Shown piece after piece: positions 22,606 to 45,487 of a stretch of 64,000 bases of DNA. Numbering within the stretch: the stretch's first letter is position 1; each line of letters starts with the position of its first letter. The translations under genes were made by a program, and so were the position numbers. The DNA is from Neobacillus sp. PS3-34 (GTDB lineage: Bacteria > Bacillota > Bacilli > Bacillales > Cytobacillaceae). The stretch spans positions 4,701,001 through 4,765,000 of the forward strand of contig NZ_CP133267.1 in NCBI RefSeq assembly GCF_030915465.1. The letters run 5' to 3'. Below the pieces are notes generated by a model. That model did not search any database. It was not told the DNA's origin and saw only the letters and a list, made by a program, of their open reading frames with translations.

Positions 22606-23082
22606 CTAAAGCAATTTCTCCATATAATATCGATCTTCCCCAACACCGAATTCGGAGTATCTTGTTTCTTTTACTTCAAATCCTTCTCTTTCATATAGGT
22701 TTACGGCTGGCAGGTTCTTTACGCTAACCGTTAAGCAAACGATCGATAACCCGTCATTTTTAAGAATGGAACATACCTCTTGTAAGAACTGTTTTCCGAT
22801 TCCCTTACCTTTATAGTCGGATCTAACGTAATAGCCAAAAATATAAGCTTTATCCGGGTTATGATAATCTCTTATGCATTCACAAACTGCCACGGGTCGA
22901 TTCTCATCTTGGTGTCTATATAAAATTAGCTTTCCAAAACGGGCGATTGGAACAAGTGTTTGTTCATCAACGGCACCTGTCCCAGGAAATGCATCAACTT
23001 CGAGCTCCATCATCATTTTTTGTTCTTCGGGTGTTAATTTAGTTGGAATATCGATGTAAAAAGGTTTTTCCATGATCATCAT
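22606..23082 (-). CDS. GNAT N-acetyltransferase
   Basis: A 158-residue acetyltransferase with the acetyl-CoA loop VRSDYKGKGIGKQFLQEV (about 103-120) and the C-terminal block LPAVNLYEREGFEVKETRYSE. Its ribosome site GAGGAGGT overlaps the stop codon region of the upstream M81 gene (4 bases between the genes), so it is translationally coupled as the last gene of the long cluster. It may acetylate an intermediate or detoxify an amine; this is inference. Confidence 0.85.
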   Translation of the reverse strand: MMIMEKPFYIDIPTKLTPEEQKMMMELEVDAFPGTGAVDEQTLVPIARFGKLILYRHQDENRPVAVCECIRDYHNPDKAYIFGYYVRSDYKGKGIGKQFLQEVCSILKNDGLSIVCLTVSVKNLPAVNLYEREGFEVKETRYSEFGVGEDRYYMEKLL

Positions 23083-23086
23083 ATCT

Positions 23087-24589
23087 TTATACCTCCTCGA
23101 CTTCAGTAAACTCTATATCTTTAAGCGGCCAGATGTCCTCTGGGATATTTTTATACGGAAAATGACTTAAACCATTGGATGCCACTCCTGGAGCATCGAC
23201 ATATATTACCTTACTAATTATGGGATCAAAGGCTGCCCGGAAATGATTTTTCACTTTTAATCCTAAAATGGTATAGGAAGTCGGCTCAATACCTATATGT
23301 CGGAACATCTCAGGGTCATTAGCTGACATAGGACGGCCTATCAAAAGAATGTCCACATTTCCTGCTCGAATGTAGGCTGCTCCTTTAACATCCACTCGTA
23401 AGTGTTGATTAAATGGGCCACTATTGTAAAAAACGCCATCTGACAGGGCCATCACCTCTGCTTTGACTTTAACTGACCCTCCAAATTCAGGAGAAGTTTT
23501 TCCGCCAAGCTCAAGCATAACAGTACTGCCAACTCCAGCGTTTCTGCATCTTTCAATCGATTCTGGGTCAGTCAATCCACCAAATAATGTTTTCGGATTG
23601 TTTTCGTAAATAAATTCTTCTAATAAAAGAGTCGTGTCCCCACTCCCACAGCTTAAAGGATTATCCGAGATATCTGCCAATACAATTGGTTTTACTACTT
23701 CCATGGACAAAGCAATCTTCATGCCCTCTTTAACTGTTGGGAGCTCCATAATAAAATCGTCACGAATCTCCCAGAATTTGTTGGCTAATTCTCTTGCTGC
23801 ATGATCTGCATTATTTTGATCGTTGGCAATGACAAGGACGCTTGCCCCTACTATCGGAATGTCGGAATAAGGAAAGCCGCCAAAAACAGAAGCATTTTTA
23901 ATAAAATCATAACTTTCAAGTTTAGAAGCAAGCACCATCAATTCATGCATGGGTCCTTCCTCAGTCCGCATGTTAATAGAAGGAGGCATCATCGGAAGCT
24001 TGATGAAAGAAGCCGCATAGCGCTTTTTCTCCAGTAAATGCTCCAGAAGTAATGTAGCTGCATTCACCCCTTGATCATACATGTCAACATGAGGATACGT
24101 TTTAAACCCAAAATGATAAGGTGTATGGTTTAACATCGTTGCACTTAAATTTGCGTGCATATCTAGAGTGGTTGCGATGGGAATATCATGCCCGATCAAA
24201 TTTCTGATTTCCTTTAACAGTTTCTCTTCAGGGTCAAAAATACCTTCCACTACCATTGCACCATGTAAAGCTAGAAGCAAACCATCCAGCTTCCCTGCCT
24301 TCTCGATTTCGGTCAGCATTTCTCCTTCAATTTGCTGATAGGCTTCGTCCGTTACCGGCCCTGAAGGAGTCGCAGCTGCACACAATAATGGAACGATTTC
24401 AATTTGTTCTACCTTTGACAAAACATCCAAAAAGCCGCCTACTTCTGTTTTGGTCGCAGTATAGGCAGAAAAAATTTCGGCTCCTTTAAAATATCCTTCA
24501 TTATAAAAAGCTTGAATATCCGTTTTTATAGGAGCGAAACTATGGGATTCATGATAGAAAAAAGCAATCCCGATTCGAAGCTTTTTCAT
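23087..24589 (-). CDS. M81 family metallopeptidase (MlrC-like)
   Basis: This 500-residue protein matches the MlrC (microcystinase C) family throughout. The N-terminal FFYHESHSFAPIKTDI, GLLLALHGAMVVEG, TTLDMHANLSATML and the C-terminal-half ADISDNPLSCGSGDTTLLLEE are characteristic. MlrC hydrolyses linear microcystin, including cleavage after the beta-amino acid Adda, and homologues are found in other peptide catabolism clusters. No signal peptide. It lies 43 bases after the aldehyde dehydrogenase and just before GNAT. A role in opening unusual peptide bonds fits the cluster. Confidence 0.87.
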   Translation of the reverse strand: MKKLRIGIAFFYHESHSFAPIKTDIQAFYNEGYFKGAEIFSAYTATKTEVGGFLDVLSKVEQIEIVPLLCAAATPSGPVTDEAYQQIEGEMLTEIEKAGKLDGLLLALHGAMVVEGIFDPEEKLLKEIRNLIGHDIPIATTLDMHANLSATMLNHTPYHFGFKTYPHVDMYDQGVNAATLLLEHLLEKKRYAASFIKLPMMPPSINMRTEEGPMHELMVLASKLESYDFIKNASVFGGFPYSDIPIVGASVLVIANDQNNADHAARELANKFWEIRDDFIMELPTVKEGMKIALSMEVVKPIVLADISDNPLSCGSGDTTLLLEEFIYENNPKTLFGGLTDPESIERCRNAGVGSTVMLELGGKTSPEFGGSVKVKAEVMALSDGVFYNSGPFNQHLRVDVKGAAYIRAGNVDILLIGRPMSANDPEMFRHIGIEPTSYTILGLKVKNHFRAAFDPIISKVIYVDAPGVASNGLSHFPYKNIPEDIWPLKDIEFTEVEEV

Positions 24590-24632
24590 AAAGCATCTCC
24601 TTGTGGTAGTTAATCAATTTTAAAAAAACATT

Positions 24633-26081
24633 CTAATAAGTCGTATAAATCGACTTCCATTCTGTCATCACATCAAAGGCATGATGCGAAACTTCTCGAT
24701 GTCCATTGCCGGAATGCTTAGTTCCACCAAAAGCGATTCCAAGTTCAGCATTGGAGGTACCATTATTAATGTAAACCAACCCGCTTTCGATTTCTTTGGC
24801 ACCACGATTTGCAAAATGAAGGCTGCTAGTAAACAAGGAAGTGGATAGTCCGTATATGGTATCATTATTTACTTCTATTGCTTCTTCAAAGCTATCGACC
24901 TCTATGAACGCCAGAACCGGTCCAAATATTTCTTCTTGGGCAACCGTATCATCTATTTTTACATTGCTTAAGATTGTAGGCTCATAAAAGAATCCTCTTT
25001 CACTGAATATACGCCTCCCGCCACATTCAATCACCGAACCTTGGGAGACGGCTAAATCTACATATTTTTCAACCGTTTGAATCTGCTGTTTATTAGTTAA
25101 CGGACCGATATCAATACCTGGTTCGAGTCCATTTCCTGCTTTTAGTTGTTTCGTTAGAGAAACGACCCGCTGAAGTAATTCATCCTTCACTTCGGACTCA
25201 ACAATCACCCGGCTTGCAGCTGTACATCTTTGACCGGTAGTCGTAAAGGCAGCCTTTACGATCGCTTCCGCAGCTTGCTTAAGGTCTGCATCCTTTAAGA
25301 CAATAGCTGCATTTTTCCCTCCTAGCTCTAAGGCTACTCTTTTTAACGTTTTGGCAGCTGTTTCGGATAGCTTAATTCCTACTTCAGTTGAGCCCGTAAA
25401 CGAAATGACCTTAACGTCTTTATGTTCCGCAAGCTGTGCACCCACCTTGCTTCCAGAACCTGTAATCAAATTCAATACACCCTTTGGAAGGCCAATATCA
25501 TGAAAAACATCTGTGAAAATTTGTGCCGATAAAGCAACCTCGGAAGCCGGTTTCCAAACGACTGTATTCCCACTGATTAGGGCTGCCAAAATTTTATAGC
25601 CTGCCAAAGATACTGGGAAATTCCATGGAGTAATACAAGTCACTACCCCAACAGGCTCACGAATCATCATAATATGACGATTATCGGCGCCAGCACCAAC
25701 GGTTTCACCGAATAGTCTTCGTCCTTCTCCTGCCATGTACTTGCAGGTTTCAATTACGACACCCACTTCTCCAAGTGATTCAGCTAATACCTTACCCATT
25801 TCCTGAGTCATCATTTGAGCTAAAATATCCCTTTTCTCTTCAAAAGCCTTTGCTGCTTTCCAAAGAAATTGTGCTCTTTCTGGAAGTGGTGTGTTTTTCC
25901 ACATTTTAAAAGCGGATCTCGCACTTTCAACGGCATCATCCACCTGGGAAGCTGTAGCAGCAGGACAATAGCCAACTACTTCCTCTGTAGCAGGATTCAG
26001 ACTCTCAAAAAATTCCTGGTCCTCTTCTAGAATCCAAGACCCGTTTATATACAATCCTTTTTTGGTTGCTTGTTGAATCAT
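24633..26081 (-). CDS. Aldehyde dehydrogenase family protein, succinate-semialdehyde-dehydrogenase-like
   Basis: The 482-residue NAD(P)-dependent aldehyde dehydrogenase has TPWNFPVSLAGYKILAALISGN, FTGSTEVG, LELGGKN (general base Glu252) and TGQRCTAASR (nucleophile Cys286). It oxidises an aldehyde to a carboxylate. Two class III aminotransferases directly upstream suggest it takes an omega-oxo acid such as succinate or malonate semialdehyde. The C-terminal FGGTKHSGNGHREVSHHAFD differs from classical GabD, so the exact substrate is open. RBS AAAGGAGG; 13 bases after the preceding gene. Confidence 0.87.
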   Translation of the reverse strand: MIQQATKKGLYINGSWILEEDQEFFESLNPATEEVVGYCPAATASQVDDAVESARSAFKMWKNTPLPERAQFLWKAAKAFEEKRDILAQMMTQEMGKVLAESLGEVGVVIETCKYMAGEGRRLFGETVGAGADNRHIMMIREPVGVVTCITPWNFPVSLAGYKILAALISGNTVVWKPASEVALSAQIFTDVFHDIGLPKGVLNLITGSGSKVGAQLAEHKDVKVISFTGSTEVGIKLSETAAKTLKRVALELGGKNAAIVLKDADLKQAAEAIVKAAFTTTGQRCTAASRVIVESEVKDELLQRVVSLTKQLKAGNGLEPGIDIGPLTNKQQIQTVEKYVDLAVSQGSVIECGGRRIFSERGFFYEPTILSNVKIDDTVAQEEIFGPVLAFIEVDSFEEAIEVNNDTIYGLSTSLFTSSLHFANRGAKEIESGLVYINNGTSNAELGIAFGGTKHSGNGHREVSHHAFDVMTEWKSIYTTY

Positions 26082-26094
26082 CCGATTGCCTCCT

Positions 26095-27381
26095 TTATAG
26101 TGTATCTTTTATGGCGTCTTCTAAAATGGACAAACCTTGATGTAAATCTTCCTCATTAATATTAAGTGGAAGCATTAATCTAATCGTTTGTCCTTGTACA
26201 CCACAATTCATGATCAGAAGTTTATGTTCTAAACATTTTTGCTTGATAAGCGGAACAGCATGGCTGGCAAAATCCTCGTGGAATTCAATTCCGATCATCA
26301 TTCCTAAACCGTGAATTTCCTTAATTCCAGGTAGCCCATTTAGGGATTCCTTTAATCGTTCTACAATCTTTGCCCCTAAATCCCTGCTTCGGTCGACTAG
26401 TTTTTCTTCTTCAATGACATTAATATTCGCTAGAGCTGCTGCACAAGAAATCGGATTCCCTCCAAAAGTTGAACCATGCCCTCCAATTGGCCATTTTTCA
26501 TGGAGCTCCCTGCTTGCAACGATCGCTCCAAGCGGCATTCCGCCAGATAGCGCCTTTGCTAAAACCATAATGTCAGGAGTTACACCAGAATGCTCTGCTG
26601 CGAACATTTTCCCGGTGCTGCGAAATCCAGTTTGAACCTCATCAAAGATTAAGAGAATTCCATGTTTTTCTGTTATTTTTCTAAGCTCCTGCAAGAATTC
26701 AACCGGAGCTGGGAAATATCCGCCTTCACCCATCACTGGTTCAATAACCACAGCAGCCACGCGTGAAGGATCAATCCGTAAATCAAAGATTTTTTGAAGC
26801 TGGTGTAAACAATAAGGAACAATCTCTTCTTCTTTCACACCCTTTAATTGTGATGGGTATGGATATGGAGCGTGATAGACCTCTCCTAAAATAGGTTCAT
26901 AGTATTTTCGATATTTGGAGCTAGAAGCAGTGATGGCCGTTGCCCCAAGTGTTCTCCCATGGAAGGAACCTTCAAAGGCAATGATCCCTGGTCTGCCAGT
27001 AGCTGCCCGAGCTAGTTTTAAGGCTCCATCAATCGCTTCTCCACCTGAATTCGCGAAAAATACGGTATCCAGATTGCCTGGCGTGATTTCAGCGATTTTC
27101 TCTGCAAGGTTGGCAGCCGATTCATAATAGCCATAGTTCAATCCGAAATGAATAAACGACTCTGCTTGTTTTTTAATAGCTTGAACCATCGCGTCATTCG
27201 CGTGACCGACAGCATTTACAGCTACACCAGACACAAAGTCAATGTATTCATCACCATCAGCTGTCCAAAATCTAGCTCCCTTTGCTTTTTCTACGACTAA
27301 TTCTGTTACCCTTGTCAAGACTGGGGATAAATGTTTTTTTGCCTTTTCTTTAATTTCCTGTGATTTATTTTGCACCTTCAT
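26095..27381 (-). CDS. Class III (omega) aminotransferase, GabT-like
   Basis: A 428-residue PLP enzyme with the fold-type I class III pattern: FVSGVAVNAVGHANDAMVQA near the N-terminus, FANSGGEAIDGALKLARAATG, GSFHGRTLGATAITASS, LIFDEVQTGFRSTGKMFAAEH, and VLAKALSGGMPLGAIVAS, where the Lys in AKALSGG binds PLP. Such enzymes act on 4-aminobutyrate, beta-alanine, ornithine and related amines. Its start overlaps the end of the preceding aminotransferase by 17 bases. Pairing with an aldehyde dehydrogenase suggests conversion of an omega-amino acid to a dicarboxylate. Confidence 0.9.
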   Translation of the reverse strand: MKVQNKSQEIKEKAKKHLSPVLTRVTELVVEKAKGARFWTADGDEYIDFVSGVAVNAVGHANDAMVQAIKKQAESFIHFGLNYGYYESAANLAEKIAEITPGNLDTVFFANSGGEAIDGALKLARAATGRPGIIAFEGSFHGRTLGATAITASSSKYRKYYEPILGEVYHAPYPYPSQLKGVKEEEIVPYCLHQLQKIFDLRIDPSRVAAVVIEPVMGEGGYFPAPVEFLQELRKITEKHGILLIFDEVQTGFRSTGKMFAAEHSGVTPDIMVLAKALSGGMPLGAIVASRELHEKWPIGGHGSTFGGNPISCAAALANINVIEEEKLVDRSRDLGAKIVERLKESLNGLPGIKEIHGLGMMIGIEFHEDFASHAVPLIKQKCLEHKLLIMNCGVQGQTIRLMLPLNINEEDLHQGLSILEDAIKDTL

Positions 27382-28752
27382 ACACCTTTTCCTCCTTCAA
27401 TTCTTTAATAAAAATCTGTAGAGAATTTTCAAGTATCCTTATCATTTCATCGATCTCATCAGTTGTAACTGTCAGAGGCGGGGTAATTAATAAATGGTCT
27501 CCAAGGCATCCGTTTATTGATCCACTGCCCGGATAAAACACCGCACCAAGCTCCATCGCTATACTATTAATTCGCTCAGAGGCGTGGATTTCACTCTTAA
27601 TTGGTGTTCCCTTTTCTCCATCAGCAGCTAATTCAATTCCCAATAGAAGTCCTTCTCCACGCACATCGAATATGATTGGAGATCGTTTTTTCAGCGCCAA
27701 TAGCTGTTCCTTCAGGTAATCACCTACAACTTGAACCTTGGCCACGATATTTTCTCTTTCATAAATAGTTAACACAGACAATCCTGCAGCGACTGAGACT
27801 GGGCTGCCACTGTACGTGGATCCATGAACAAATTTGCCCTTGCCATTTTGAATTAAGCTATCGACAATCCGATCATGAACAACCATGCCAGCAAGAGGGG
27901 CATAGCCAGCGGAAACTCCCTTTCCGAATGTCATAATGTCAGGGGTTATCCCGAAGTGCTCGATGCCAAAGTCCTTACCAGTTCGTCCAAAACCCGTCAT
28001 TACCTCATCCACAATTAAAACAATATTGTACTTGTCACAGATCTTTCGAATCTTTTTAAAATAAGATTCCGGGGGACTGACTGCACCAAGCTGACTGCCG
28101 ACAATTGGCTCAGCAATGAAGGCAGAAACCTGGTCTGGCCGAGTTCCAGGACAACGCTTTCAAAATCGCGGACACATGACCAATTTTCCTTATAATCACA
28201 ATCCTCTTTTTCTCTCTGATAGGGACATCGTTTACAATTCGGAGAATGAATATGGCTGAAATTCATTAGGTTTGGTGTATAAACCTGACGGCGCTTAATA
28301 TCTCCACCTGCTGAAAGAGATCCAAACGTGTTTCCGTGATAGGATTGCCACCTGCCGATTACGATGTGTTTTTCAGGTCTACCTTCATCCCTATGAAACT
28401 GCCTTGCCAGCTTTATAGCACTTTCATTTGCTTCGGACCCACCACTTGTAAAATAAACCTTGTTCATGGAATCCGGTGCTAGTTTTGCAATTTTTTCAGC
28501 AAGCTTGAACAATACCTCCGTTTCAAATCTCATCGTATGTACGAAGGCAGCCTTCTTGGCTTGTAATGCCATGGCATCAGCTATTTCTTCCACACCATGG
28601 CCTAAGTTTGCAGCAACGGCACCTGAACAGGCATCAATATAGCTTTTTCCGTTCTCATCATATAGATAAATTCCTTTACCGTGGGTGATAATAGGATACG
28701 TTTTTGAAAAGTCCCTATGGAACACATAATCTTCTAATAGCTCTCTTTCCAT
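27365..28752 (-). pseudogene. Second class III aminotransferase, split by a 1-base frameshift near 28138
   Basis: The first fragment contains DACSGAVAANLGHGVEEIAD, VYFTSGGSEANESAIKLARQF and GRWQSYHGNTFGSLSAGG. Adding a base at GGCC/AGACC resumes with QVSAFIAEPIVGSQLGAVSP and VDEVMTGFGRTGKDFGIEHFG, then MTFGKGVSAGYAPLAG with the PLP lysine. Together they form a complete enzyme of about 460 residues. A Cys insertion (C-x2-C-x8-C-x7-C) lies at about residues 185-205. The start at 28752 has AAAGGTGGTG upstream; the open frame starts at 28788. Intact apart from the indel, so a sequence error is likely. Confidence 0.85.
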
Positions 28753-28809
28753 TCTTTCACCACCTTTGCTATTCTTTAACACTGGCATTTGTAATGACTA
28801 GTCAATCAT

Positions 28810-29466
28810 TCACCATACTCCCTTCACAACAGTGTTCAATGAAACCTTGAAGCTTGCCTCCGTATGTTTTTTTACGTGATCAATCGTTATTTCAGGTGCT
28901 GTTTCCTTTAAGACGAGTCCTTCATCATCCACTTCAAATACGGCAAGTTCAGTAATAATGAGATCTGCCTTTCGTTCAGAAGTCATCGGATACTGAAGCC
29001 ATTTTACAATTTTTGATTCCCCTTCTTTTGTAGTATGAAGGGTTGTAACGATGACTTTTCTCGAGCCTTCCAGCAAGTCCATTGCTCCCCCTACCCCCAG
29101 CACACTTTTACCAGGTACAGCCCAATTTGCCACTCTTCCTTTTTCGTCTACTTGAAGCACCCCAAGAATAGAGACATCTACATGACCACCCCGAATCATC
29201 GCAAATGATGAAGCACTGTCAAAAAATGATGCTCCAGCCTCCACTGTCACTGGCAGCTTTCCAGCATTCACTAGCTGTTTATCCACTTGTTCTGGCTTCG
29301 GGGAAGGTCCAACACCTAATATTCCATTTTCAGAATGGAGAAACACTTCAATATCAGGTGGTACAAAATCTGCGACCTGCGTTGGAATGCCAATACCGAG
29401 GTTCACAATATCTCCATCCTCGAGAGCCTGTGCTGCTCTCCTTGCAATAAATTCTTTTGGGTTCAT
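28810..29466 (-). CDS. scoB: 3-oxoacid CoA-transferase subunit B
   Basis: This 218-residue beta subunit of a class I CoA-transferase has [15 protein letters not shown] and the catalytic-glutamate motif [11 protein letters not shown] near residue 45, then [21 protein letters not shown] and [19 protein letters not shown]. The enzyme moves CoA from succinyl-CoA to a 3-oxo acid. Its ATG overlaps the TGA of subunit A (ATGA). In this cluster it could activate a 3-oxo acid or other acid produced by the dehydrogenase. Substrate inferred from family only. Confidence 0.92.
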
Positions 29467-30124
29467 GGCATTTCCAGCTCCTTCATTACGATATAGTCAA
29501 CGAATAGGTGTGGGATTACGATTTCCTCAGGTGAAAGTTCACCCACTTTAACGATTTCATCTACTTCCACAATGACTACCTTTGCTGCCGTTGCCATATT
29601 CGGATTAAAGTTCCTGGCTGACTTTGTAAAAACTAAGTTGCCGAGTTCATCCGCCTTATGCGCTTTAATAAGGGCAAAATCTGCCTTTAAGGACGGCTGG
29701 AAAATATATTTTTTTTCATCTATTATTCTTTCTTCCTTACCAGCAGCAATTAAAGTTCCTGCACCAACTGGCGTAAAAAAACCAGCAATGCCGCTCCTCC
29801 TGCTCGAATGGCCTCAGATAAGGTACCTTGTGGAATTAGCTCAATCTCTAACTCCCCCATTTGATATGCCTTTACTACGTCTGGGTTAGAGGTAAAATAA
29901 GAACCGATTCCCTTTCTCACTCTTTTGTTCCTTACGAGTACACCCAGCCCTCTGCCTGGTTCACCTAAGTTATTACTTATAATCTCTAATTCTTTTACTT
30001 CCGAAAGAAACAAGGAGTGGATTAACGTTAACGGGCATCCAACTAAACCGAATCCACCCACCATGATTCGACTTCCGTCTTTAATTAATGAAGCAGCTTC
30101 ATTGGATGAGATCAGCTTTTTCAT
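29463..30124 (-). pseudogene. scoA: 3-oxoacid CoA-transferase subunit A, split by a 1-base frameshift near 29791
   Basis: The N-terminal half reads ISSNEAASLIKDGSRIMVGG, ISNNLGEPGRGLGVLV and GELEIELIPQGTLSEAIRAGG. Restoring one G in GCGG/CATT (GGG reduced to GG) gives IAGFFTPVGAGTLIAAGKEE, then KADFALIKAHKADELGNLVF and a C-terminus ending [10 protein letters not shown] that overlaps the scoB start by ATGA. Full length is about 220 residues, normal for ScoA/AtoD. RBS GGAGG before 30124. Most likely intact in vivo. Confidence 0.87.
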
Positions 30125-30201: not shown

Positions 30202-31427
30202 TTACGTATGTGCCTGTGCCCACCTGCTCCATAAACCCTCCAGGTCCTTTCTTGCTTCTGAAACGTTTGGATGGAACTTAATATCGGATAATTTTCTGCT
30301 ATGTTCCACAAAAGAAATCGATTCTTCAATATCTGTCTCATTAATTTTTCCAATTTTCAATCTTTTGCAGATAGACTTACCTGCTAATGTTCCCTGTGCC
30401 ATAGCAACTTTTGCTCCCTCAATTCCGGTAATATTTCCAGCAACAAAAAGATTGGGAACTGTTGTTTGAAGCTCTTTATTATGTAATGGCACCGTACCTG
30501 ATAATCCTTCCAACGTAACAAATTTACATCCTACCGTTGCCGCTAGTTCGTATAATGGGCTAAGGTTCCGGAGACACAGACTGTATCGGCCTGGATGACC
30601 TTTTGTTCTCCAATAGGGTTTCCATCTACATCAATCTTAGAAATTGTTACACTGTCCACCTCTTGAGTCCCATTTATCTTAAGGATTGTGTGCCTTAAAT
30701 GGATAGGAATTCCCCACATTTTCATTCCCTTTGGCGGGTAATATTTGGCAGCAATCTTTCTCCCGGTTTTCGTTTTTAATAGCTTGCCTGCAAATCTAAT
30801 CATTTTAGAAGGAGCAAAATCTGTCATCTTATTTAACGTTTCTAGCTGTAATAGCGGGGAAGCATAATTGGAGAATGGACTATGTGGAAGCATGTAAATT
30901 CCTATTACATCCGCTCCGGCAAGCTTCAGGGACCGTGCAATTGATAGTGACAGAATATCAATGCCTATAACGATTACTTTTTTTCCTGGCAATACTTGAT
31001 ATACATTTGTCATCACTTGTGCCGCACCAATGGATAGCACACCTGGCAATGTCCACCCAGGAATCGGTATTGGCTTTTCAACAGCACCAGTAGCAAGCAA
31101 TACACAATCTGCTTGGATTTCCATTCCTGGTTCATTCTGGACCAAATCAGAAATGTGCACCTTCCATCCTAGTTCCAAGCCCCAAACCTGCTTATTAGAA
31201 AGAATGGTAACGTTGGCTGCTAGGGCAGTTTGTCTTAATTTTTGAGCATTCTCGAATCCCTTCCACCACTTTGAATGATTTCCCTCTTGATGCAGTTGAC
31301 CAAGCAATTTTCCTCCTGGTGTTGGATGATCATCGATTACTACGACATTCCCGCCTCTAGATCCAATTTCGATGGCTGCAGATAAACCAGCAGGACCTCC
31401 CCCAACCACTACCACATCCACTTTCAT
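30202..31427 (-). pseudogene. NAD/FAD oxidoreductase, HcnB/opine-oxidase subunit A-like, frameshift near 30558
   Basis: A GxGxxG FAD motif (VVVGGGPAGLSAAIEIGSRGG) opens the protein and a second dinucleotide motif is near GKKVIVIGIDILSLSIARSL. The domain order and the motifs LATGAVEKPIPIPGWTLPGV and, after the break, ELAATVGCKF then NLFVAGNITGIEGAKVAMAQGTLAG match HcnB, OoxA and hydroxyproline-dehydrogenase subunits. Restoring one C in GCCC/ATTA joins the parts. The start at 31427 follows AAAGGGGGGAAG. These enzymes oxidise secondary amines or glycine-like substrates together with the neighbouring iron-sulfur and oxidase subunits. Confidence 0.85.
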
Positions 31428-31447
31428 TTTCTTCCCCCCTTTCATAT

Positions 31448-31750: not shown

Positions 31751-32026
31751 ATCGAATTCTCCTTTCGCACTATTTTGGCTAAGGAAACAGGACGAACTGG
31801 CTGGTGAAAGGTTAGTTGACTCGGGCTATCATCACTTTCCTTATGAAAAGTTGGCAGCATTGCCTCCAATAATGGTCTGCATATCCTGCCCTGGCACAGT
31901 CCCATCCCCGCCCGGGCTGGCCATTTTCATTTCCTGACTTGTGGTGGCACCGGCATTGATAGCATCTTGGATATCGTCAATTGTTACTTCTTCACAACGA
32001 CATATGATTAAAGAATGATTACACAT
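31747..32026 (-). pseudogene. BFD-like (2Fe-2S)-binding protein, 1-base frameshift near 31915
   Basis: The N-terminus holds ICRCEEVTIDDIQDAINAGATT. Removing one base in the run at 31914-31916 gives MASRAGMGLCQGRICRPLLE, completing the C-R-C ... C-Q-G-R-I-C pattern of bacterioferritin-associated-ferredoxin-like domains. About 92 residues. In opine-oxidase systems this domain is usually fused to the HcnB/OoxA subunit; here it is a separate gene. It overlaps the upstream oxidase by 8 bases and the downstream ferredoxin by ATGA. One of the few insertions among the indels. Confidence 0.8.
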
Positions 32027-37834: not shown

Positions 37835-38792
37835 ATGATCCCTCCTCTTACATGACAGGCAACAAAGTGATTAGGAGAGACTTCTTGAAGCTCAGGTTCT
37901 TTTGACCTGCACTCATCTGTTGCATATTCACAGCGAGGATGAAATAGGCAGCCACTCGGTGGATTTAATAGATTTGGTGGAGAACCTGGAATCGAAGAAA
38001 TCATTTCCCTGCTGCCATATATATCTGGAAAGGAGTGAACTAGCTTTTCTGTATACGGATGAAGGTGTTGATCTAAAATATCTTCAACACTACCTAATTC
38101 AACAATTTTTCCTGCATACATGATGGCTGCTTTATCACACGTTTCTCCCATCACAGATAAATCATGCGTAATAAGAATCATTGACATATTTAATTCTTTC
38201 CTAAGCTTTTCGAGCAGATTAAGAATTTGGCGTGAACCATTACGTCAAGAGCCGTAGTTGGTTCATCCCCGATAATAAGCTTCGGGTCACAAGCTAATGC
38301 CATTGCAATCATGGCACGCTGCTTCATTCCACCACTAAATTCATGTGGAAATTGATCCATTCGTTCACTATTAATTTCAACTAATTCAAAAAGTTCCTTT
38401 ACCTTCTTTTTTGCTTCAGTACGGTTACTGCCTTTATGTAACATGATGGCCTCAATAATTTGATCGCCGACCTTCATAACAGGATTCAACGAGTTCATCG
38501 CACCTTGAAAGACGATCGAAATATCGTTCCACCGTGTTCTTCTCATTTTTTCATGTGATAATTTGACCAGGTCATTTCCATTAAAAAATACGTTCCCGCC
38601 TGCTAATTTGCCTTCATTAGGAAGAAGCTTCGTGATCGATAAGGCAGTCGTTGTTTTACCACAGCCTGACTCTCCTACAAGAGCAATGGCTTCGCCTTCT
38701 TCGAGTGTAAAACTTACACCATCTACAGCTTTAACAATGCCTTCCTTCGTATGAAAATATGTTTTTAAATCCCTTACTTCTAATAGACTCAT
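37831..38792 (-). pseudogene. OppD/DppD-like ATP-binding protein, split by a frameshift near 38227
   Basis: Walker A GESGCGKTT, FSGGMKQRAMIAMALACDP and GDEPTTALDVMV lie before the break. Restoring one A in GCCAAA/TTCTT yields ILNLLEKLRKELNMSMILIT and then HDLSVMGETCDKAAIMYAG and the C-terminal Cys region LFHPRCEYATDECRSKEPE. About 320 residues when joined. The start at 38792 has GCGGAGG, which overlaps the end of the OppC gene. Probably intact in vivo. Confidence 0.87.
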
Positions 38793-38793
38793 A

Positions 38794-39709
38794 TTATTTC
38801 CTCCGCAGCTTTGGGTTGAAAAGTTCATCAAATGCATATCCCAGGAAGGTAAAACCAAGAACAACCCCTACTACACATAGTCCAGGTGGAAGTAAAAACC
38901 AATAAGCCCCCACACTAGCAGCGCCTGAAGTAAAGGCGTAATGTAACATCATTCCCCAGCTCGGATGCGATGCATCTCCCATTCCTAAAAAACTAAGACT
39001 AGTCTCTGATAAAATGGCCACTGCTGAAACGAGAATTGTGTTTGCAAATATTAACGGAAAAACGTTAGGAAGAATGTGTTTATACATGATATAGAAGTCA
39101 TTTGCCCCAATGGCCTTTGCACGTTCAATAAATTGTCTTTCCTTTACGGATAAGGTTTGCGCGGACAATTCTGGCTGTACTTGACCAACTCGTTAGTCCA
39201 ATAACTAAGATAATGTTCCAAATACTTGACCCTAAAAGCGCAGCCAGAACAAGCATTAAAGGTAACCAAGGTAGTACTAGGAAAATTTCTGTAAATCTCA
39301 TCAAGATCGTATCAACTTTTCCGCCGATATAACCTGAGCCAATACCTATCAAGGTTCCGACAACCATGGTAATAAATGTAGCAAGAATTCCAACTCCTAA
39401 TGACACTCTTGAACCTGAGATCAGTGCAGCCAATACGTCCCTGCCTAAATCATCCGTTCCAAGCCAGTGCTGGCTGCTTGGTGGCTGCATGACTTCATTA
39501 CCAGACCCAATTTGTAATGGATTATATGGAAAAATGATTGGTCCAATCAGCGCAATTAAGCCAAAAAACACGAATATACCGATCCCAAGCATGCCCATTT
39601 TATTACTTTTAAAAATCGAAATGATTTGAGAATATCTTTTGCGATTAACATCACTTTTTCTTGTCATTTCTATTTCTGGGATCGACTGTACTACTTTTGG
39701 TTCAATCAT
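38794..39709 (-). pseudogene. OppC/DppC-like permease, split by a frameshift near 39160
   Basis: The N-terminal half has HWLGTDDLGRDVLAALISGS, the usual OppC block, and several helices. The C-terminal half has VKERQFIERAKAIGANDFYI, the EAA loop, and SETSLSFLGMGDASHPSWGM. The parts join as RIVRAQTLSV if one GC dinucleotide is restored in the GCGC repeat, so this is a two-base slip. About 305 residues. Thirteen bases after OppB. Confidence 0.85.
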
Positions 39710-39722: not shown

Positions 39723-40691
39723 CTATCCTTTTACTCTTGGATCTAAATATCCATAGAGTACGTCTGCGATTAAGTTGGCTAAGATAACGCAAATGCTAAT
39801 AATAAGAAAAATTCCCTGCAATAATGGATAATCACGATTTAAAAGCGCTTCATACATCAGCCGGCCTATACCTGGCCATGAAAAAACAGTCTCAATTTCA
39901 ATGGCACCTGCAATCATAAATCCAAGATTAATCGAAATGACGGTAACCATTGGTAACATCGCATTAGGCACAGCATGTTTCCGAACGATATATTTTTCTG
40001 AAAATCCCTTTGCTTTTGCTGTCTGTACATAATCTTCTGTTAGTTCGTCGATAAGTGAATTTCTCATAATGAGCACATATTGTCCCAGTAATACGAGACT
40101 AAGTGATAACGCAGGGAGTAATAAGTGGTGTGCTACATCAAGCACTTCATCCATGGAGTTTGCAAAAACCATTCCAGCTGTCGACATTCCTGATGTAGGA
40201 AAAAGGGTAAAATGAACACTTAATAAAGCAACCAGCACCACACCAACCCAAAAGGTTGGCATGGAGTAGGTTAGTAATGAAAAAGATAATGAAAAGACAT
40301 CCACTTTCTTTCCTCTTTTTCGTGCAGCAAGGATACCTAAAAATATTCCACCAAGCAGAGAGACCAAGGTCGCGACTCCTACTAACAATAGTGTGGGAAC
40401 AATCTTAGTTGCGATTAAATCCACAACCGGCTGTTTAAACAAAAATGACATACCTAAGTCACCCTTCAAGAGCGCCTTCACATATAACCCAAACTGAACG
40501 TACCACGGGTGATCCAGCCCGAAGAGGTGCTTCATTTTTTCAACCGATTCAGGCGATGCTTTTGGATCGCGAAGCATCATGGCCAGCGGATTACCAGGCA
40601 TGACACGAAACAAAAAATAATTGATTACGAGTACAAAAAACAAGGTGACGATTGCATTGGATAGTTTTTTTGCAAAATATTTAAGTTTCAT
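39723..40691 (-). CDS. OppB/DppB-like ABC permease
   Basis: A 322-residue, six-helix permease. FRVMPGNPLAMMLRDPKASPE near the N-terminus, the EAA loop DYVQTAKAKGFSEKYIVRKH and ETVFSWPGIGRLMYEALLNRDYP near the C-terminus are typical of the peptide-transporter OppB/DppB group. AAGGAG precedes the ATG. It lies 24 bases after the binding-protein gene. Confidence 0.93.
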   Translation of the reverse strand: MKLKYFAKKLSNAIVTLFFVLVINYFLFRVMPGNPLAMMLRDPKASPESVEKMKHLFGLDHPWYVQFGLYVKALLKGDLGMSFLFKQPVVDLIATKIVPTLLLVGVATLVSLLGGIFLGILAARKRGKKVDVFSLSFSLLTYSMPTFWVGVVLVALLSVHFTLFPTSGMSTAGMVFANSMDEVLDVAHHLLLPALSLSLVLLGQYVLIMRNSLIDELTEDYVQTAKAKGFSEKYIVRKHAVPNAMLPMVTVISINLGFMIAGAIEIETVFSWPGIGRLMYEALLNRDYPLLQGIFLIISICVILANLIADVLYGYLDPRVKG

Positions 40692-40714: not shown

Positions 40715-42490
40715 TTACATATCATCAAAACGGTCAATTCCATTCCGTTTTCTCGCTTTAACCACCAATATGAGAACAATGATAGCTACTGCAATTGCGA
40801 CGTAAATCCACCAGGAGTTACTGCTATTTTCATTATTTTTATTTGTATCTTTCCCGCTCGCGGTTTCTTTGACAGCAGGCTCAACATGAAGATAGTTATA
40901 ATTGTTAGCTGTCATGAAGTAAGCGCCTTGAACGGGTGTCCAACCCTTCCATTTATCAGTGCGAACCGCCTGGATTGCATTTTCCTCCATTAGAATGATG
41001 TATGGAAGATCTTCTGCTAAAATGTCCTGCATCTCATACACCATACTCTGGCGTTTTTTGAAATCGATCGTTGTTGCCTGCTCTGCCAGCAACTCATCAT
41101 ACTTTGAATTGGAATAATACGTTTCGCTTAAATTTCCAATTTGATCAGTACTAACAATACTCAAGATTGTGGTTGGATCGATATCAGTTGTCCAACCCCA
41201 AATAAATAAATCATAGTTGCCTTTGTCAGCGATTTTATCTCCTAACACACCATCATCCATGGTTTCCACTTTTGTTTCGATTCCAACATCGTTTAACATG
41301 GAATGAACCATTTGGCCGGCTTTAACTTCTTCTGCTGATTTGCTCCGAGTATAGAGACGAAACTCTAATGGTTTTCCGTTTTTATCTTCACGAATACCAT
41401 CACCATTTTGATCCTTAAAGCCTGCGTCATCCAAGATGGCTTTAGCCTTGTTCGCATCAAAGGAGCGAACCTTATCCGCACTCAATTCATTGTGCCAATC
41501 CTTTAAAAATGTTGGAACGATTGTCGTTCCTGCTTTTCCCTGACCGGAATAAGCCACATCGATAATTTTTTGTTTATCAATTGCATATTCCATCGCTTGT
41601 TTGATGGAAGTGTTTAATAATAGTGGATTCCCTTTTGATGCCTTATCCTTCGATGAGTTGATACCAATATTGGTAAAGCTGTTCGTCGGATTGGAAAGAA
41701 CTTTCATATTCTTTTCTGCTCCCAGTAATTTTACCTGGTTCGCATTAATGTTGATGGCTGCATCAATTTCACCAATTTTTAACGATTGGACCATCGTATC
41801 GTTGTTGGCATATAGAGGGTAAATTAATTCATTAACCTTTGGGGTGCCTAAAAAGTAATCCTTGTTCGCCTCAAGCTTTACATATTCGCCTTTCTTCCAT
41901 TCAACAAATTTAAACGCACCCGTCCCGATTGGCTTTTCGTTAGGCCATGTCTTTAAATCATCAAATTTTACTTTTTCCCAAATATGCTTTGGTAAAATTG
42001 GGGCTGTTACATATAACATATTGGCTTTCGGCTTATCTGTTTTAATGACAACTGTATAGTCGTCAGGGGTTTCAATGCTGGTAATTCCCTTAAGAAAATC
42101 CGAATACATGCCCATTTCAGCTTTCAGCAGCGTTTCATAACTATACTTAACGTCTTGGGAGGTAAAAGGCACTCCATCATGCCATTTGACACCTTTCTTC
42201 AACTTAAATGTCCACGTTAAATTGTCATCGCTAACATTCCAGCTTTCTGCTAATCTTCCTTCTGGCTTTAAATGATTATCAAAAGCAACCAAGGAGTCAT
42301 AGATTAATAGATGTAACTCAAAGGTGGAAACTCTGTTTGATATGAACGGACTTAAGCTATCAGGTTCTGTAGTCCAACCAACTCTTAAGGAAGATGGACT
42401 TGAAGCTTCCGCACGGTTGTTAACTAGTGGTGAAAAAAACATAAATAATATAATTGAAATGATGCATAAAAATGAAATCCCCTTTTTCAT
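40715..42490 (-). CDS. Peptide ABC transporter substrate-binding protein with C-terminal membrane anchor
   Basis: This 591-residue family 5 binding protein has a Sec signal (hydrophobic 6-25, then NNRAEASSP) without a lipobox cysteine. The family block WTFKLKKGVKWHDGVPFTSQDVKYSYE is near residue 92. Instead of a lipid anchor it ends with a linker (TASGKDTNKNNENSSN), a transmembrane helix (WWIYVAIAVAIIVLILVV) and a basic tail, so it is anchored at the C-terminus, which is less common. RBS AGGAGG. Binds di- or oligopeptides for the adjacent importer. Confidence 0.9.
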   Translation of the reverse strand: MKKGISFLCIISIILFMFFSPLVNNRAEASSPSSLRVGWTTEPDSLSPFISNRVSTFELHLLIYDSLVAFDNHLKPEGRLAESWNVSDDNLTWTFKLKKGVKWHDGVPFTSQDVKYSYETLLKAEMGMYSDFLKGITSIETPDDYTVVIKTDKPKANMLYVTAPILPKHIWEKVKFDDLKTWPNEKPIGTGAFKFVEWKKGEYVKLEANKDYFLGTPKVNELIYPLYANNDTMVQSLKIGEIDAAININANQVKLLGAEKNMKVLSNPTNSFTNIGINSSKDKASKGNPLLLNTSIKQAMEYAIDKQKIIDVAYSGQGKAGTTIVPTFLKDWHNELSADKVRSFDANKAKAILDDAGFKDQNGDGIREDKNGKPLEFRLYTRSKSAEEVKAGQMVHSMLNDVGIETKVETMDDGVLGDKIADKGNYDLFIWGWTTDIDPTTILSIVSTDQIGNLSETYYSNSKYDELLAEQATTIDFKKRQSMVYEMQDILAEDLPYIILMEENAIQAVRTDKWKGWTPVQGAYFMTANNYNYLHVEPAVKETASGKDTNKNNENSSNSWWIYVAIAVAIIVLILVVKARKRNGIDRFDDM

Positions 42491-42500
42491 CCTTAACCTC

Positions 42501-43457
42501 CTACGAACGCGTACCGCATTCTTCTATGATAAATTTTCCGTTTGAAGCATCTAAAAACCCATGTACCCCTAATGGAATAGTTGCCAAATCTTTTGTGTGT
42601 CCAAGTGGCAGCCCATAAATAGCCGGGATTTGTAAGCGCTTTAAATAGTCCTCTAAAATATCCTCTAAACTAAACGTAACCGGGAAACCAGGATTGTGCT
42701 TATAAGGCTCACAATCTTTACATTCCGCAACGACAATGCCTGCGGCTTTTTGCAGCTTTCCTGCATTCCATAAGTGCGATAACATATGATCCATAACCCA
42801 TGGCTCGGTATCCAGCTCTTCGAAAAATAAAATTTTCCCCTCCGTTTCTATCTCATAGGGAGTACCTAAAGAGGCACAGATTAACGTCAGATTTCCGCCC
42901 ACCATTTCTCCTCTTGCTTCACCTGGATGAATGATGTTAATCCATTTTTTCTTATCAGCGAGTTCAATTTCCCCAATGGGTTCGTTCAACATTAATGCTT
43001 TAAATAGCTGATTCTTTCGATATTCGGATAAATCCTCAGGATTAAATCCTGCCATTCCTGGCCCGTGAAAGGAAACCAATCCTGTAAGCCTATGTATCGC
43101 GAGATGAATTGCAGTAATATCACTGTAGCCAATGAAAATTTTAGGATTCTGTTTAATCAAATCAAAATCTAAATAGCGGAGGATTCTTGCTGATCCATAT
43201 CCACCCTGTGTGACGAAAATGGCATCGACTTGATCATTTTTAAACATGGAGTTGATGTCGTGTGCGCGCTGTTCATCTGTTCCCGCTAAATACTCATGTC
43301 TTGCATGAACATGGTCACCAACGATCACATGAAAGCCCCACTCTTCAAGTGTTCTTTTTCCTCGAATGAAATCACTCTTATTGTATAAAGGGCTGGCAGG
43401 GGCAACGATTCCGATCGTATCTCCTTTTTTTAACCTTGCTGGTTTTATTTTTTCCAA
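42501..43457 (-). CDS. S66 family LD-carboxypeptidase/MccF-like
   Basis: A 318-residue serine peptidase with GDTIGIVAPASPLYNKSDF, the nucleophile-elbow IFIGYSDITAIHLAI, ILFFEELDTEPWVMD with the catalytic Glu, and GLPLGHTKDLATIPLG with the His. Family members cleave murein L,D-peptide bonds (LdcA, YkfA) or microcin-like acyl-adenylates (MccF). In B. subtilis a similar gene (ykfA) adjoins the dipeptide importer operon. TTG start with AAGGGGAG. Ten bases before the binding-protein gene. Confidence 0.88.
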   Translation of the reverse strand: MEKIKPARLKKGDTIGIVAPASPLYNKSDFIRGKRTLEEWGFHVIVGDHVHARHEYLAGTDEQRAHDINSMFKNDQVDAIFVTQGGYGSARILRYLDFDLIKQNPKIFIGYSDITAIHLAIHRLTGLVSFHGPGMAGFNPEDLSEYRKNQLFKALMLNEPIGEIELADKKKWINIIHPGEARGEMVGGNLTLICASLGTPYEIETEGKILFFEELDTEPWVMDHMLSHLWNAGKLQKAAGIVVAECKDCEPYKHNPGFPVTFSLEDILEDYLKRLQIPAIYGLPLGHTKDLATIPLGVHGFLDASNGKFIIEECGTRS

Positions 43458-43524: not shown

Positions 43525-44286
43525 TTAGGAGCTGGTTGCGAAATTCAATTTGTTTCTCTTCAATATAATGATGCTCTGGCCAGAAATAGAGATGCCCGCA
43601 ACTACTGCGTTTGAATAATCATAAATAGGTGCTGCAATCGCTGCCTCTCCGATGGTTAGTTCGCCTCTGGATTCCGCATAGCCTTGTTCGCGAATTTTTG
43701 CAAGTTCTTTTAATAAAAGGTCTCGGTGAGATATCGTTTGTGGTGTAAAGGTTGGTAAATCATCTGAGATGAGGTTCGATATTAAATCTGAAGGAAGATG
43801 AGCCAGGATGACTTTTGATAATGCCCCTCCATATACTGGGAGGCTCTGTCCAACTTTGATTCCCATAAAATAGCTTTTAAAGGATTCAATATTGATTAAA
43901 CATAAAACTTTTCCTTGATCATATACACTGAGGTTGCAATTTTGTGAGGTTTTATTGGATAGTTCCTGGAGGTAGGGTATTGCTGTTTGCACTAGGTCTA
44001 TGCAGCTTACAACGATGCCGCCTAATCGAACAAACTGCTTACTAAGCTTGTATTTATTGGAAATAGGGTCCTGCTCAATATATCCCCTAGCCAGCATGGT
44101 TTGAATAAAACGATGAATCGTAGCTAGGGATAATGAGGTTTTTTCTGAGATTTCTGTGAGTGTTAATTCTGAACTGTCTAATGTAAAGGCTTCAATAATA
44201 TCAAACACTCTTTCTAATACCCGTATATTTTGGCTTTTTTCTTGGTCTATTCTTGACACCCCCAACACTTGAAATTGTTTTTTCAT
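43525..44286 (-). CDS. IclR-family transcriptional regulator
   Basis: At 253 residues it has the IclR winged helix (IRVLERVFDIIEAFTL, LTLTEISEKTSLSLATIHRF) and an effector domain with AIPYLQELSNKTSQNCNLSV and GVLCLINIES-like segments, then ESRGELTIGEAAIAAPIYDY. It is the first gene after the palindromic region at 44281-44345 and likely represses the downstream peptide and amine catabolism genes until an inducer is bound. A GTG at about residue 10 is an alternative start. The effector is unknown. Confidence 0.9.
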   Translation of the reverse strand: MKKQFQVLGVSRIDQEKSQNIRVLERVFDIIEAFTLDSSELTLTEISEKTSLSLATIHRFIQTMLARGYIEQDPISNKYKLSKQFVRLGGIVVSCIDLVQTAIPYLQELSNKTSQNCNLSVYDQGKVLCLINIESFKSYFMGIKVGQSLPVYGGALSKVILAHLPSDLISNLISDDLPTFTPQTISHRDLLLKELAKIREQGYAESRGELTIGEAAIAAPIYDYSNAVVAGISISGQSIIILKRNKLNFATSS

Positions 44287-44310
44287 TTCCGCCTAGTGAA
44301 AGTATAATTT

Positions 44311-44331
44311 CATTTTCACCAGGTGAAAATG
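44311..44331. promoter_or_regulatory. 21-bp palindrome CATTTTCACC-A-GGTGAAAATG, probable IclR operator
   Basis: Two perfect 10-base arms around a central A lie 25 bases upstream of the iclR start. Additional TTTCA/TGAAA half sites occur at 44281-44302 and TTTTCA at 44335-44340, giving a clustered array. IclR regulators bind such palindromes in front of their own operons. The binding protein is inferred from position. Confidence 0.7.
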
Positions 44332-44420
44332 GAGTTTTCATTTTCTTATCACCCATTATATAATTTAAAAAAATAAATAGTCAATATATTTCGACTTTTT
44401 AGATTAGTTAGAAATATATG

Positions 44421-45487
44421 TTATTTGAGACCAAGAATTTGTAAAGTCTTCTCGATTGGTATTTCATATAGAACATTTCCATTCCGGCCAGACAAGGTAG
44501 TTGCTTTAAATATTGCATTTAAGATCGCTTCTTCCACACTCTCGATCGCAGCTTCAAAAATATCATTAAGGAACTGATCATTTAACATGTTTAAGCACTG
44601 GATGTCTGTCACATCTCCTCTTTTCAACCTATTTGCCGTAGAAAAAGCAAGAGATATTTCACCACTTCCATGATAAGCCTTCGAGCCAATTTTCCCGAGT
44701 CCTAATGCGGCTCTTTTTGCTACCCTCCCTAACTGATGTGACAGCAATGGAGCATCTGTTCCAATGACAATAATAATGGATCCCTCAGGAACACGACTTT
44801 TCGGCATAAACTCTTGAAGTTCCTTTCCAACAGCAGTACCGTTTAAAAGAAAATCGTTGCGTTTACCAAAGTTAGTCATGACTAATGTTCCAATCGTATA
44901 TTGATTTAAAACGACTCTAGAAGATGTACCTATCCCTCCTTTAAACTCAAAACAGCTCATTCCCGTACCACTTCCAACACAGCCCTCTTCTACGGCCCGT
45001 ATGTCGCTTTATTTATTGCTGATAAAACGTGTTCTTGCTTCACATGTCTACCGCGAGGGTTATTTAAAAAGCTATCATCACATTCTGCAACAATTGGCAG
45101 GACGATATCCTCCGTGTTCCCTAATTCAGGATATCTTCTTGTCATATATTCAATGATGCCATCACTTACAATCCCTACATTCATTGAATTTGTTAGTGCA
45201 ATTGGGGTTTCTATGATTCCCCATTCCTTCACTTGAAGAATTCCTGTCATTTCACCAGCACCGTTAATGACATAACTATTAGCAAAAAGGCGCTGATTGT
45301 ATAAATCTTCATTAGGAAGGATCACCGTTACACCAGTCCGTGCAGGACCTCTATCATCATGTTCTTCAGAAATAACGGTTTCGTGTCCAACTTTTACACC
45401 AGGGATATCCGTAATGGCGTTGTTTGGACCTGTTGGAAACCTCCCTATATTTATCCCTAATTCTCTTACACGTTTTCTTTCTCTCAT
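44421..45487 (-). pseudogene. P1 family peptidase (DmpA/BapA-like), split by a frameshift near 44995
   Basis: This is an N-terminal-nucleophile aminopeptidase family in which the precursor self-cleaves to alpha and beta chains. GPNNAITDIPGVKVGHETVI, EWGIIETPIALTNSMNVGIV and, after restoring one base at GGGCC/GTAG, VGSGTGMSCFEFKGGIGTSS are family hallmarks. The nucleophile Ser follows Gly in PEGSIIIVIGTDAPLLSHQL. About 355 residues when joined. DmpA and BapA remove D- or beta-amino acids from peptides. RBS GGGAGAG before ATG 45487. First gene of the cluster, with a MITE 137 bases upstream. Confidence 0.87.

Follow-up and report, generated by a model that had tools for sequence, protein, structure and literature searches.

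In Bacillus, lysine is degraded via beta-lysine by the kam/yod locus, whose gene order we take to be yodT-yodS-yodR-yodQ-gabT-gabD-yodP-kamR-kamA. The aerobic beta-lysine route of Pseudomonas proceeds via N6-acetyl-beta-lysine and 4-acetamidobutyryl-coenzyme A (CoA). According to the accessible part of PMC4428206, kamA of B. thuringiensis is under the control of sigma54 and KamR, and a 2019 survey, in the part accessible, describes the physiological role of B. subtilis KamA as still to be determined (PMC6522883). Here we discuss a cluster of 23 genes at positions 22606-45487 of a 64,000-nucleotide stretch from Neobacillus sp. PS3-34, referred to as the window (its genome is G000 below, and other genomes carry similar handles). 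On balance, this cluster probably encodes a variant of lysine/beta-lysine catabolism that is fed by peptides and amino acids and ends in acetyl-CoA and succinate. The observations behind this reading are the gene content, the recurrent association of the genes in relatives, their modularity and mosaic origin, purifying selection, a conserved promoter with its palindrome, and a link to lysine 2,3-aminomutase (KamA).

All 23 genes run in the same direction on the minus strand, from an S58 peptidase to a small GNAT acetyltransferase, as identified by Pfam scans and one tblastn search. Only one intergenic gap exceeds 100 bp, namely the 134 bp between the S58 gene and iclR. The original prediction had described a minus-strand cluster of about 23 genes, and every gene it named is there; it had passed over the small BFD gene (31750-32026) and the splitting of nine of the 23 genes between two frames. 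The gene order is found again in other genomes and is thus more than chance. It can be divided into three modules. Module A comprises IclR-S66-OppABCDF-M20, with S58 upstream. Module B combines an amino-acid ABC importer, made up of a family 3 amino-acid-binding protein (SBP3), HisM and HisP, with a four-subunit flavin/Fe-S dehydrogenase. Module C, the core, contains two class III aminotransferases and an aldehyde dehydrogenase (ALDH) in the order AT3b-AT3a-ALDH-M81-GNAT, mostly together with CoA-transferase subunits A and B (CoA_A, CoA_B) and a thiolase.

How are these modules arranged in relatives? In G189, S58-IclR-S66-OppABCDF-M20-AT3b-AT3a-ALDH-M81-GNAT stands unbroken on one strand (48836-64783 of a 75-kb stretch), and 24 kb before it lies SBP3-HisM-HisP-DAO-BFD-Fer2-OoxA-DUF3870-CoA_A-CoA_B-thiolase. 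In G001, which belongs to the same genus, and in G419 and G221 from another family, this second block, DUF3870 included, runs straight into the five core genes. Upstream of the run in G001, the C-terminal portion of M20 (query residues 332-383) finds a 63% match, which suggests that module A may once have been present there. G184 and G179 show DUF3870-CoA_A-CoA_B-thiolase-core-KamA followed by module B; G161 has the same arrangement from AT3a onward, its contig end falling inside the core, and an amino acid permease is close by in G179 and G161. In G188 and G191 IclR directly precedes the core; this run is preceded in G188, at a distance of about 21 kb, by module B together with CoA_A, CoA_B and thiolase. 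The DUF3870 gene had been guessed from its size to encode a RidA imine deaminase, which the Pfam assignment to DUF3870 rejects.

Module A also occurs apart from the core. G030 carries IclR-S66-OppABCDF-M20-creatininase without it, and two Clostridia metagenome-assembled genomes (MAGs) carry S66-Opp-M20-M20, while a third, on a short contig, has S66 and OppA to OppD. In a Clostridiales MAG (L017, 18972-20363) an MTTB-family methyltransferase follows S66-Opp-M20-M20, which hints at a role for module A in the use of methylated amines in other organisms. A related run, with another importer and lacking the lysine-type end steps, is seen in G555 (L124, 1590-11695), where DUF3870-CoA_A-CoA_B-thiolase-AT3b (48%)-TctC-TctB-TctA-M81-creatininase form one run.

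M81 orthologs at about 65% identity or more occur in 37 of 193 genomes of the family; at E <=1e-60 matches rise to 45 of the 193, eight of them at 30-35% identity, and an order-wide draw gave M81 in 16 of 397 genomes at E <=1e-150. The gene order was read at 38 loci: the window, six reached via OoxA, 20 of the remaining family matches and 11 of 13 new matches from the order (all except G379 and G426). The five-gene core is found in 36 of the 38, the others being G161, cut by its contig end, and G555. KamA lies in a cluster of core-type genes at 26 loci, adjoining GNAT in 25 and, in G291, standing at the end occupied by CoA_A. Seven loci have module B contiguous with the core (window, G001, G184, G179, G161, G419, G221), two more have it at a distance of up to about 35 kb, and module A is contiguous in two, the window and G189. 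None of these named feeders is seen at six loci: G191 (IclR only), G258, G059, G263 (short contig), G147 (contig end) and G555 (other transporter). Seven of the 193 family genomes carry an OoxA ortholog at 68% identity or above, and all seven have an M81 ortholog; a calculation by hand that ignores kinship puts the chance of drawing seven out of seven from 37 in 193 at about 6e-6. S66 orthologs (E <=1e-85) are found in three of the 193, two of them with the core.

The original prediction regarded the cluster as one catabolic pathway, an idea it would have given up had related genomes scattered the genes. By gene order some scattering is indeed seen, with module A alone in G030 and most core loci lacking both A and B, yet joint catabolism is supported by shared runs in several relatives, A being joined unbroken to C in G189 and B to C in G001, G419 and G221. 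The proposed substrate, a beta-, D- or N-alkylated residue feeding into succinate or acetyl units, is compatible with this picture. That prediction made no connection to lysine 2,3-aminomutase or the kam locus, did not recognise the frameshifts or the mosaic origin, and did not relate M20 to HmrA and Xaa-Arg dipeptidase.

The connection to lysine comes from the aminomutase. In G184 the gene between GNAT and SBP3 encodes lysine 2,3-aminomutase (TIGR03820, 630 bits, cut-off 525.4), and this G184 protein aligns to 2a5h with 595 bits and keeps Asp293 and Asp330, which we presume to bind the lysine side chain. An aminomutase match was obtained in all ten genomes tested and lies above the cut-off in nine, the exception being G000 with a single, split copy. 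Both G000 and G189 have a separate kam locus, with a sigma54 activator in each. According to family scans, that of G189 contains proteins of the YodT, CoA-transferase A and B, M20 deacylase, gamma-aminobutyrate (GABA) transaminase, aldehyde dehydrogenase and AblB (TIGR03827) types. Compared with the core proteins of G189, those of the G000 kam locus are 40-47% (YodT), 42% (CoA-transferase A), 52% (CoA-transferase B), 38% (gabT-like) and 35-40% (gabD-like) identical. The window itself shows the kam-type pairing of a YodT-like aminotransferase with 3-oxoacid CoA-transferase A/B. Since AT3b of G189, which scores best with PRK06917 (463 bits), stays under the cut-off of 535, it appears to be a sister of YodT rather than YodT itself. 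A second S66 gene of G000 (32% identity; G000:C1:4082197-4083141, L109 7200-8132) lies directly upstream of the yodT of the kam locus, so that S66 stands beside a lysine-type locus twice in this genome.

From the enzyme classes and known biochemistry we infer the order of steps, beta-lysine as an intermediate and every substrate. The cluster would be one IclR-controlled catabolic operon built from three horizontally mobile modules. Module A, with S58 beside it, would import and trim peptides that contain a basic and/or a beta- or LD-linked residue. Module B would take up a basic or N-substituted amino acid and oxidize it at a C-N bond, probably yielding lysine or a lysine-like amine. Core C would then carry out carbon catabolism as in the kam/yod beta-lysine route. 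Here, the small GNAT (22606-23082, PF00583) would acetylate the terminal amine, and the YodT-like AT3b (27365-28788, split by one frameshift) would transaminate the beta-amine to give a 3-oxo acid. This acid would be activated by 3-oxoacid CoA-transferase subunits A (29463-30124, one frameshift, its G001 ortholog above the TIGR02429 cut-off) and B (28810-29466, TIGR02428, 302 bits, cut-off 243.6), and then undergo thiolysis by a thiolase, which is not part of the cluster here. Deacylation might fall to the MlrC-like metallohydrolase M81 (23087-24589, PF07364 and PF07171, solved relatives 3iuu and 7ylq), which is a guess. Finally, transamination by the GABA-transaminase-like AT3a (26095-27381, PF00202, all NCBIfam matches under cut-off) and oxidation by ALDH (24633-26081, PF00171, 557 bits, motifs ELGGK and GQRC) would turn a C4 amino acid into succinate.

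Several observations weigh against this scheme. No gene for an aminomutase or a thiolase, nor for DUF3870, was found in the window; the sole aminomutase of the genome is the split copy of its kam locus, and its five other thiolases are 42-52% identical to the one absent from the cluster. GNAT, ALDH, AT3a and AT3b all remain under every curated family cut-off. The top NCBIfam match of ALDH is alpha-ketoglutaric semialdehyde dehydrogenase (482.8 bits, cut-off 770), and it reaches 392 bits against succinate-semialdehyde dehydrogenase, with a cut-off of 646. AblB (TIGR03827) is not among the NCBIfam matches of the window GNAT, none of which passes its cut-off, and the protein is about half the size of AblB, an identity that the NCBIfam scan leaves unsupported. 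At the G555 locus there is no match to AT3a, ALDH or GNAT, and none of the named feeders was seen beside the core in G258 and G059. Because G555 keeps M81 without these three partners, M81 may act at a step other than deacylation. Module B adds a further difficulty, as its binding protein SBP3 (34775-35587, PF00497) resembles binders of alpha-amino acids and is of uncertain specificity. It keeps the Arg and Asp that we take to bind the alpha-amino acid head, which argues against a beta-amino acid ligand, and its NCBIfam scores for a cystine binder (195.8 bits) and a lysine/arginine/ornithine binder (194.5 bits) are both under cut-off. Among solved relatives 3vv5 comes first, followed by reconstructed ancestors and several amino acid binders including those for Lys/Arg/Orn, which speak for the lysine reading, and His; binders of nopaline and octopine score lower.

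Could the core instead serve beta-amino acids in general? S58 would free them from beta-peptides, AT3b would deaminate them, CoA-transferase and thiolase would split the 3-oxo acid, and the link to the aminomutase would merely reflect beta-lysine as one such acid. The S58 peptidase (DmpA/BapA/D-aminopeptidase family; 44421-45487) is split into two frames in this assembly, with its GTGMSCFEFKGGIGTSSR region present; both the family match and the autoprocessing region are found in the window, and the ortholog of G189 is intact with 355 aa. Its homology to DmpA and BapA (231 and 226 bits, respectively) speaks for such a role, as do the aminomutase-free loci in which IclR, A or B stands beside the core, and G555, where AT3b, CoA-transferase and thiolase are present but AT3a, ALDH and GNAT are not. 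However, the closest solved relative of S58 is 2drh (332 bits), annotated as a hypothetical D-aminopeptidase and presumably of archaeal source, and the window and G189 are the only loci where S58 stands beside the core. While S58 matches occur in 118 of the 193 family genomes, the close type is confined to G000 and G189 and the other 116 are at 41-51% identity, so S58 is rejected as an obligate partner. The alpha-amino acid character of SBP3 also tells against this reading, as does the M20 dipeptidase/amidohydrolase (35660-36826, TIGR01891 above cut-off), which resembles a dipeptidase for C-terminal basic residues, its best solved relatives being HmrA (3ram, 258 bits) and Xaa-Arg dipeptidase (7yh4, 233 bits), a kinship that also speaks for the lysine reading. 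Overall, we regard a general beta-amino-acid pathway as unlikely.

An equally improbable proposal, which would narrow the lysine reading rather than oppose it, is murein-peptide salvage. S66, Opp and M20 would take in peptidoglycan peptides of the lysine type and shorten them, and the other genes of the cluster would burn the lysine and D-amino acids. S66 (42501-43457, PF02016 and PF17676, best PDB match 4e5s) is indeed nearest to LD-carboxypeptidase/MccF proteins. It is followed by the OppA-type binding protein of the SBP_bac_5 family (40715-42490, PF00496, 321 bits, best PDB match AppA 1xoc), the permeases OppB (39723-40691) and OppC (38794-39709), and the ATPases OppD (37831-38864) and OppF (36851-37834). 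OppB and OppF were assigned by Pfam, and one frameshift each splits OppC and OppD. The recurrence of the unit as S66-Opp-M20 in G030 and as S66-Opp-M20-M20 in two Clostridia MAGs would suit such a function. Yet MccF types and tetrapeptide carboxypeptidases are equally close relatives of S66, and Pfam scans recognised no muramyl or gamma-D-glutamyl enzyme in the cluster.

It might also be argued that unrelated operons merely came to lie side by side in the same direction. This touches on the history of the modules, for which the proportion of synonymous differences was determined between the window and three relatives, G184, G001 and G189. For module B it is 0.34-0.43 to G184, 0.59-0.74 to G001 and 0.73-0.76 to G189. 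Four core genes show 0.52-0.60 to G189, 0.68-0.81 to G001 and 0.77-0.81 to G184, and CoA-transferase B shows 0.68 to G001 and 0.80 to both G184 and G189. Module A with S58 lies at 0.42-0.75 to G189, OppA being highest, and the kam locus of G000 at 0.75-0.84 to that of G189. The cluster is thus a mosaic in which B is nearest to G184, A and C to G189, and CoA-transferase B to G001, and a single inherited block is rejected by these differing nearest relatives. Because A and C (OppA apart) are less diverged from G189 than the shared kam locus, and the divergence from G184 is far smaller for B than for the core, horizontal transfer seems to have been at work. No synteny was seen in the flanks, where two open reading frames (ORFs) match only at 48-51% in G189 and G188. 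Differing nearest relatives, module A alone in G030 and a core that mostly lacks A or B would all fit unrelated neighbours. Such a coincidence is nevertheless very unlikely, considering that A accompanies C in two genera and B accompanies C in two families, and that module B and M81 co-occur in seven of seven genomes.

Slightly less credible still is a decaying, non-functional cluster in which all nine frameshifts are real. S58, OppC, OppD, HisM, DAO, BFD, OoxA, CoA-transferase A and AT3b are split between two frames, nine of 23 genes, and thiolase and DUF3870 are missing, as decay would predict. The split of S58 was seen in the Pfam scan and that of BFD in tblastn; the other seven were subjected to frameshift-tolerant alignment against proteins of relatives, and each shows one clear single-base shift and a gene body free of stops. 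One further possible shift lies at the C-terminal end of OoxA and Fer2_4, in OoxA together with a stop. Against decay, splitting occurs at a similar rate elsewhere: rpoC of G000 is in two frames as well, and at least three of the nine kam-locus genes (YodT, gabD, KamA) are split. For 20 of 25 gene pieces compared between window and G189, the ratio of nonsynonymous to synonymous substitution (Ka/Ks) lies at 0.02-0.12, with rough values where Ks exceeds 2, as it does in several; the set covers the cluster apart from BFD and Fer2, and the five remaining pieces (CoA_A, CoA_B, OppA, HisP, DAO) are saturated at synonymous sites. Where computable, the ratios point to purifying selection. Mean ORF length, 177-378 aa for 14 stretches elsewhere in this genome versus 246-397 aa in 20 stretches of relatives, would fit assembly errors but is weak and equivocal by itself. 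Since rpoC and kam genes are split too and Ka/Ks is low, assembly indels are the likelier cause, and real pseudogenes were set aside in view of the same split genes. Genes, rpoC among them, seem to be interrupted by single-base indels at several places of this single-contig genome (window 22606-45487; G000:C1:2162363-2165877), and gene calls need care.

The weakest alternative is a hydroxyproline/proline-type pathway, with the dehydrogenase of module B acting on D-hydroxyproline or a proline analogue and ALDH on alpha-ketoglutaric semialdehyde. The catalytic beta subunit of the DAO family (32019-33289, one frameshift) has 1y56_B as its best PDB match, obtained with the G184 ortholog as query, which we take to be the beta subunit of an archaeal L-proline dehydrogenase, and the top match of ALDH, under its cut-off, points the same way. 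This pathway is very improbable and was set aside, as the cluster has no proline racemase or DapA-type gene, unlike the sox locus of B. thuringiensis in the accessible part of PMC4941409, and as it leaves CoA-transferase, thiolase, two aminotransferases and the aminomutase unexplained.

Returning to the proposed lysine operon, the signals for its expression can be located upstream of iclR. The regulator (43525-44286; PF01614, 136 bits, and PF09339) has PcaR/PcaU as its top NCBIfam match, under cut-off. A sigma-A-like promoter, TTGACT-18-TATAAT (44355-44384, minus strand, 11 of 12 consensus bases), lies inside the S58/iclR gap and is the best promoter-like match within 22.4-46.5 kb; by eye it is similar in G189 and G188. 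Directly 3' of it stands a palindrome with a TTTTCACC/GGTGAAAA core (44306-44336), probably the IclR operator. At the equivalent site TTTCCACTAGGTGGAAA is exact in G189 and in G191, whose stretch in the promoter comparison ends at the -10 box, and has two mismatches in G188 and three in the window; scattered matches elsewhere appear at four mismatches. Promoter-like sites are not enriched over shuffled sequence (29 versus 27.6 and 31 versus 35.4), so only the conservation of promoter and palindrome carries weight. No terminator-like site was detected on the minus strand in 22.4-34.4 kb. Within 34.4-46.5 kb three such sites are intragenic (41530, 42183, 36166). Two more lie upstream of S58, one of them a hairpin of 12 pairs with a T-run (45863-45890, minus strand) that sets the cluster off from the gene before it. 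This layout would allow a single transcript over the operon under IclR control.

The surroundings contain a few further features. On the plus strand, two adjoining TldD/PmbA-type metallopeptidase genes (19722-22496) are convergent with the end of the cluster. On the other side, a stretch of low coding density holds a gene of the SUKH-1 (SMI1/KNR4) family (46006-46374); genes of this type frequently serve in toxin immunity. A short minus-strand ORF at 7053-7435 resembles a 64-residue N-terminal extension of the M81 frame of G001 (50% over 32 residues, 39% over 49 residues).

Going one step further, core C may be a catabolic hub with exchangeable feeders that bring in an unrecognised natural conjugate of lysine or beta-lysine, an idea we put forward tentatively and hold to be possible rather than probable. 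The feeder would be the aminomutase at most loci and elsewhere an importer of peptides accompanied by LD/D/beta-type peptidases, an opine-type dehydrogenase of four subunits together with its importer or, in part, the tripartite tricarboxylate transporter of G555. Candidate conjugates include an N-substituted lysine, a beta-lysyl peptide or an opine of lysine; to our knowledge, no breakdown genes for such compounds have been described in such bacteria. Carboxymethyl-lysine was considered as well, and a literature search yielded no matching paper. In the literature searched, mostly beyond subscription journals, we met no account of this cluster, though we do not claim its absence from print. 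An independent genetic handle on the KamA pathway would come from such a core, which is paralogous, moves horizontally and has either an aminomutase or import and oxidation modules as its partner. Core and feeders name concrete enzymes to assay and show how bacteria may plug new substrates into one hub.

How does the locus compare with described systems? The M20 of module A is homologous to PM20D2/Xaa-Arg dipeptidase and HmrA, differing in that it sits in a bacterial operon, with its activity predicted from sequence; PM20D2 is called a beta-alanyl-lysine dipeptidase in the title of a reference seen in the accessible part of PMC13311154. In module B, the dehydrogenase adjoins a family 3 ABC importer, completed by HisM (34108-34766, one frameshift splits the gene) and HisP (33332-34096, Pfam). 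Its DAO beta, Fer2 gamma (Fer2_4, 31448-31750, PF13510, C-X4-C-X2-C-X12-C) and OoxA/HcnB-like alpha subunits (30202-31445, split by a frameshift) stand in tandem as in opine dehydrogenases. As far as the accessible part of PMC4575208 shows, it shares with the opine (OdhBCA/OoxAB/NoxAB) and D-hydroxyproline dehydrogenases the beta-gamma-alpha order and the Fer2 motif C-X4-C-X2-C-X11-12-C. In contrast to opine dehydrogenase, the BFD-type [2Fe-2S] unit is a subunit of its own in all seven relatives and not part of alpha. In the window, the small BFD gene (two frames) was found by tblastn with the G184 BFD, PF04324 being matched in the ortholog, and no second [2Fe-2S] motif (C-X-C...C-X4-C) is present in OoxA alpha of the seven. 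The Arg-X-Trp motif for flavin mononucleotide described in the accessible part of PMC4575208 is Arg-X-Phe in DAO of all seven relatives and in the window fragment. The sox locus for sarcosine use in B. thuringiensis, in the accessible part of PMC4941409, likewise unites sarcosine-oxidase-like subunits and an aldehyde dehydrogenase in a catabolic locus. Unlike the cluster, it encodes proline racemase, dihydrodipicolinate synthase and a sigma54 activator, and the ten genes listed there include no peptidases, CoA-transferase or class III aminotransferases.

The closest counterpart remains Bacillus kam/yod. Its enzyme classes are also those of core C (class III aminotransferase, CoA-transferase A/B, GABA-type aminotransferase, ALDH, acetyltransferase and hydrolase), and most loci homologous to core C contain lysine 2,3-aminomutase. 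The two are paralogous at 35-53% identity. M81 takes the place of the M20 protein YodQ, a short GNAT that of AblB, and a thiolase is added in most core loci; the cluster has IclR rather than a sigma54 activator, and where kam/yod has its aminomutase, the window has import of peptides and amino acids.

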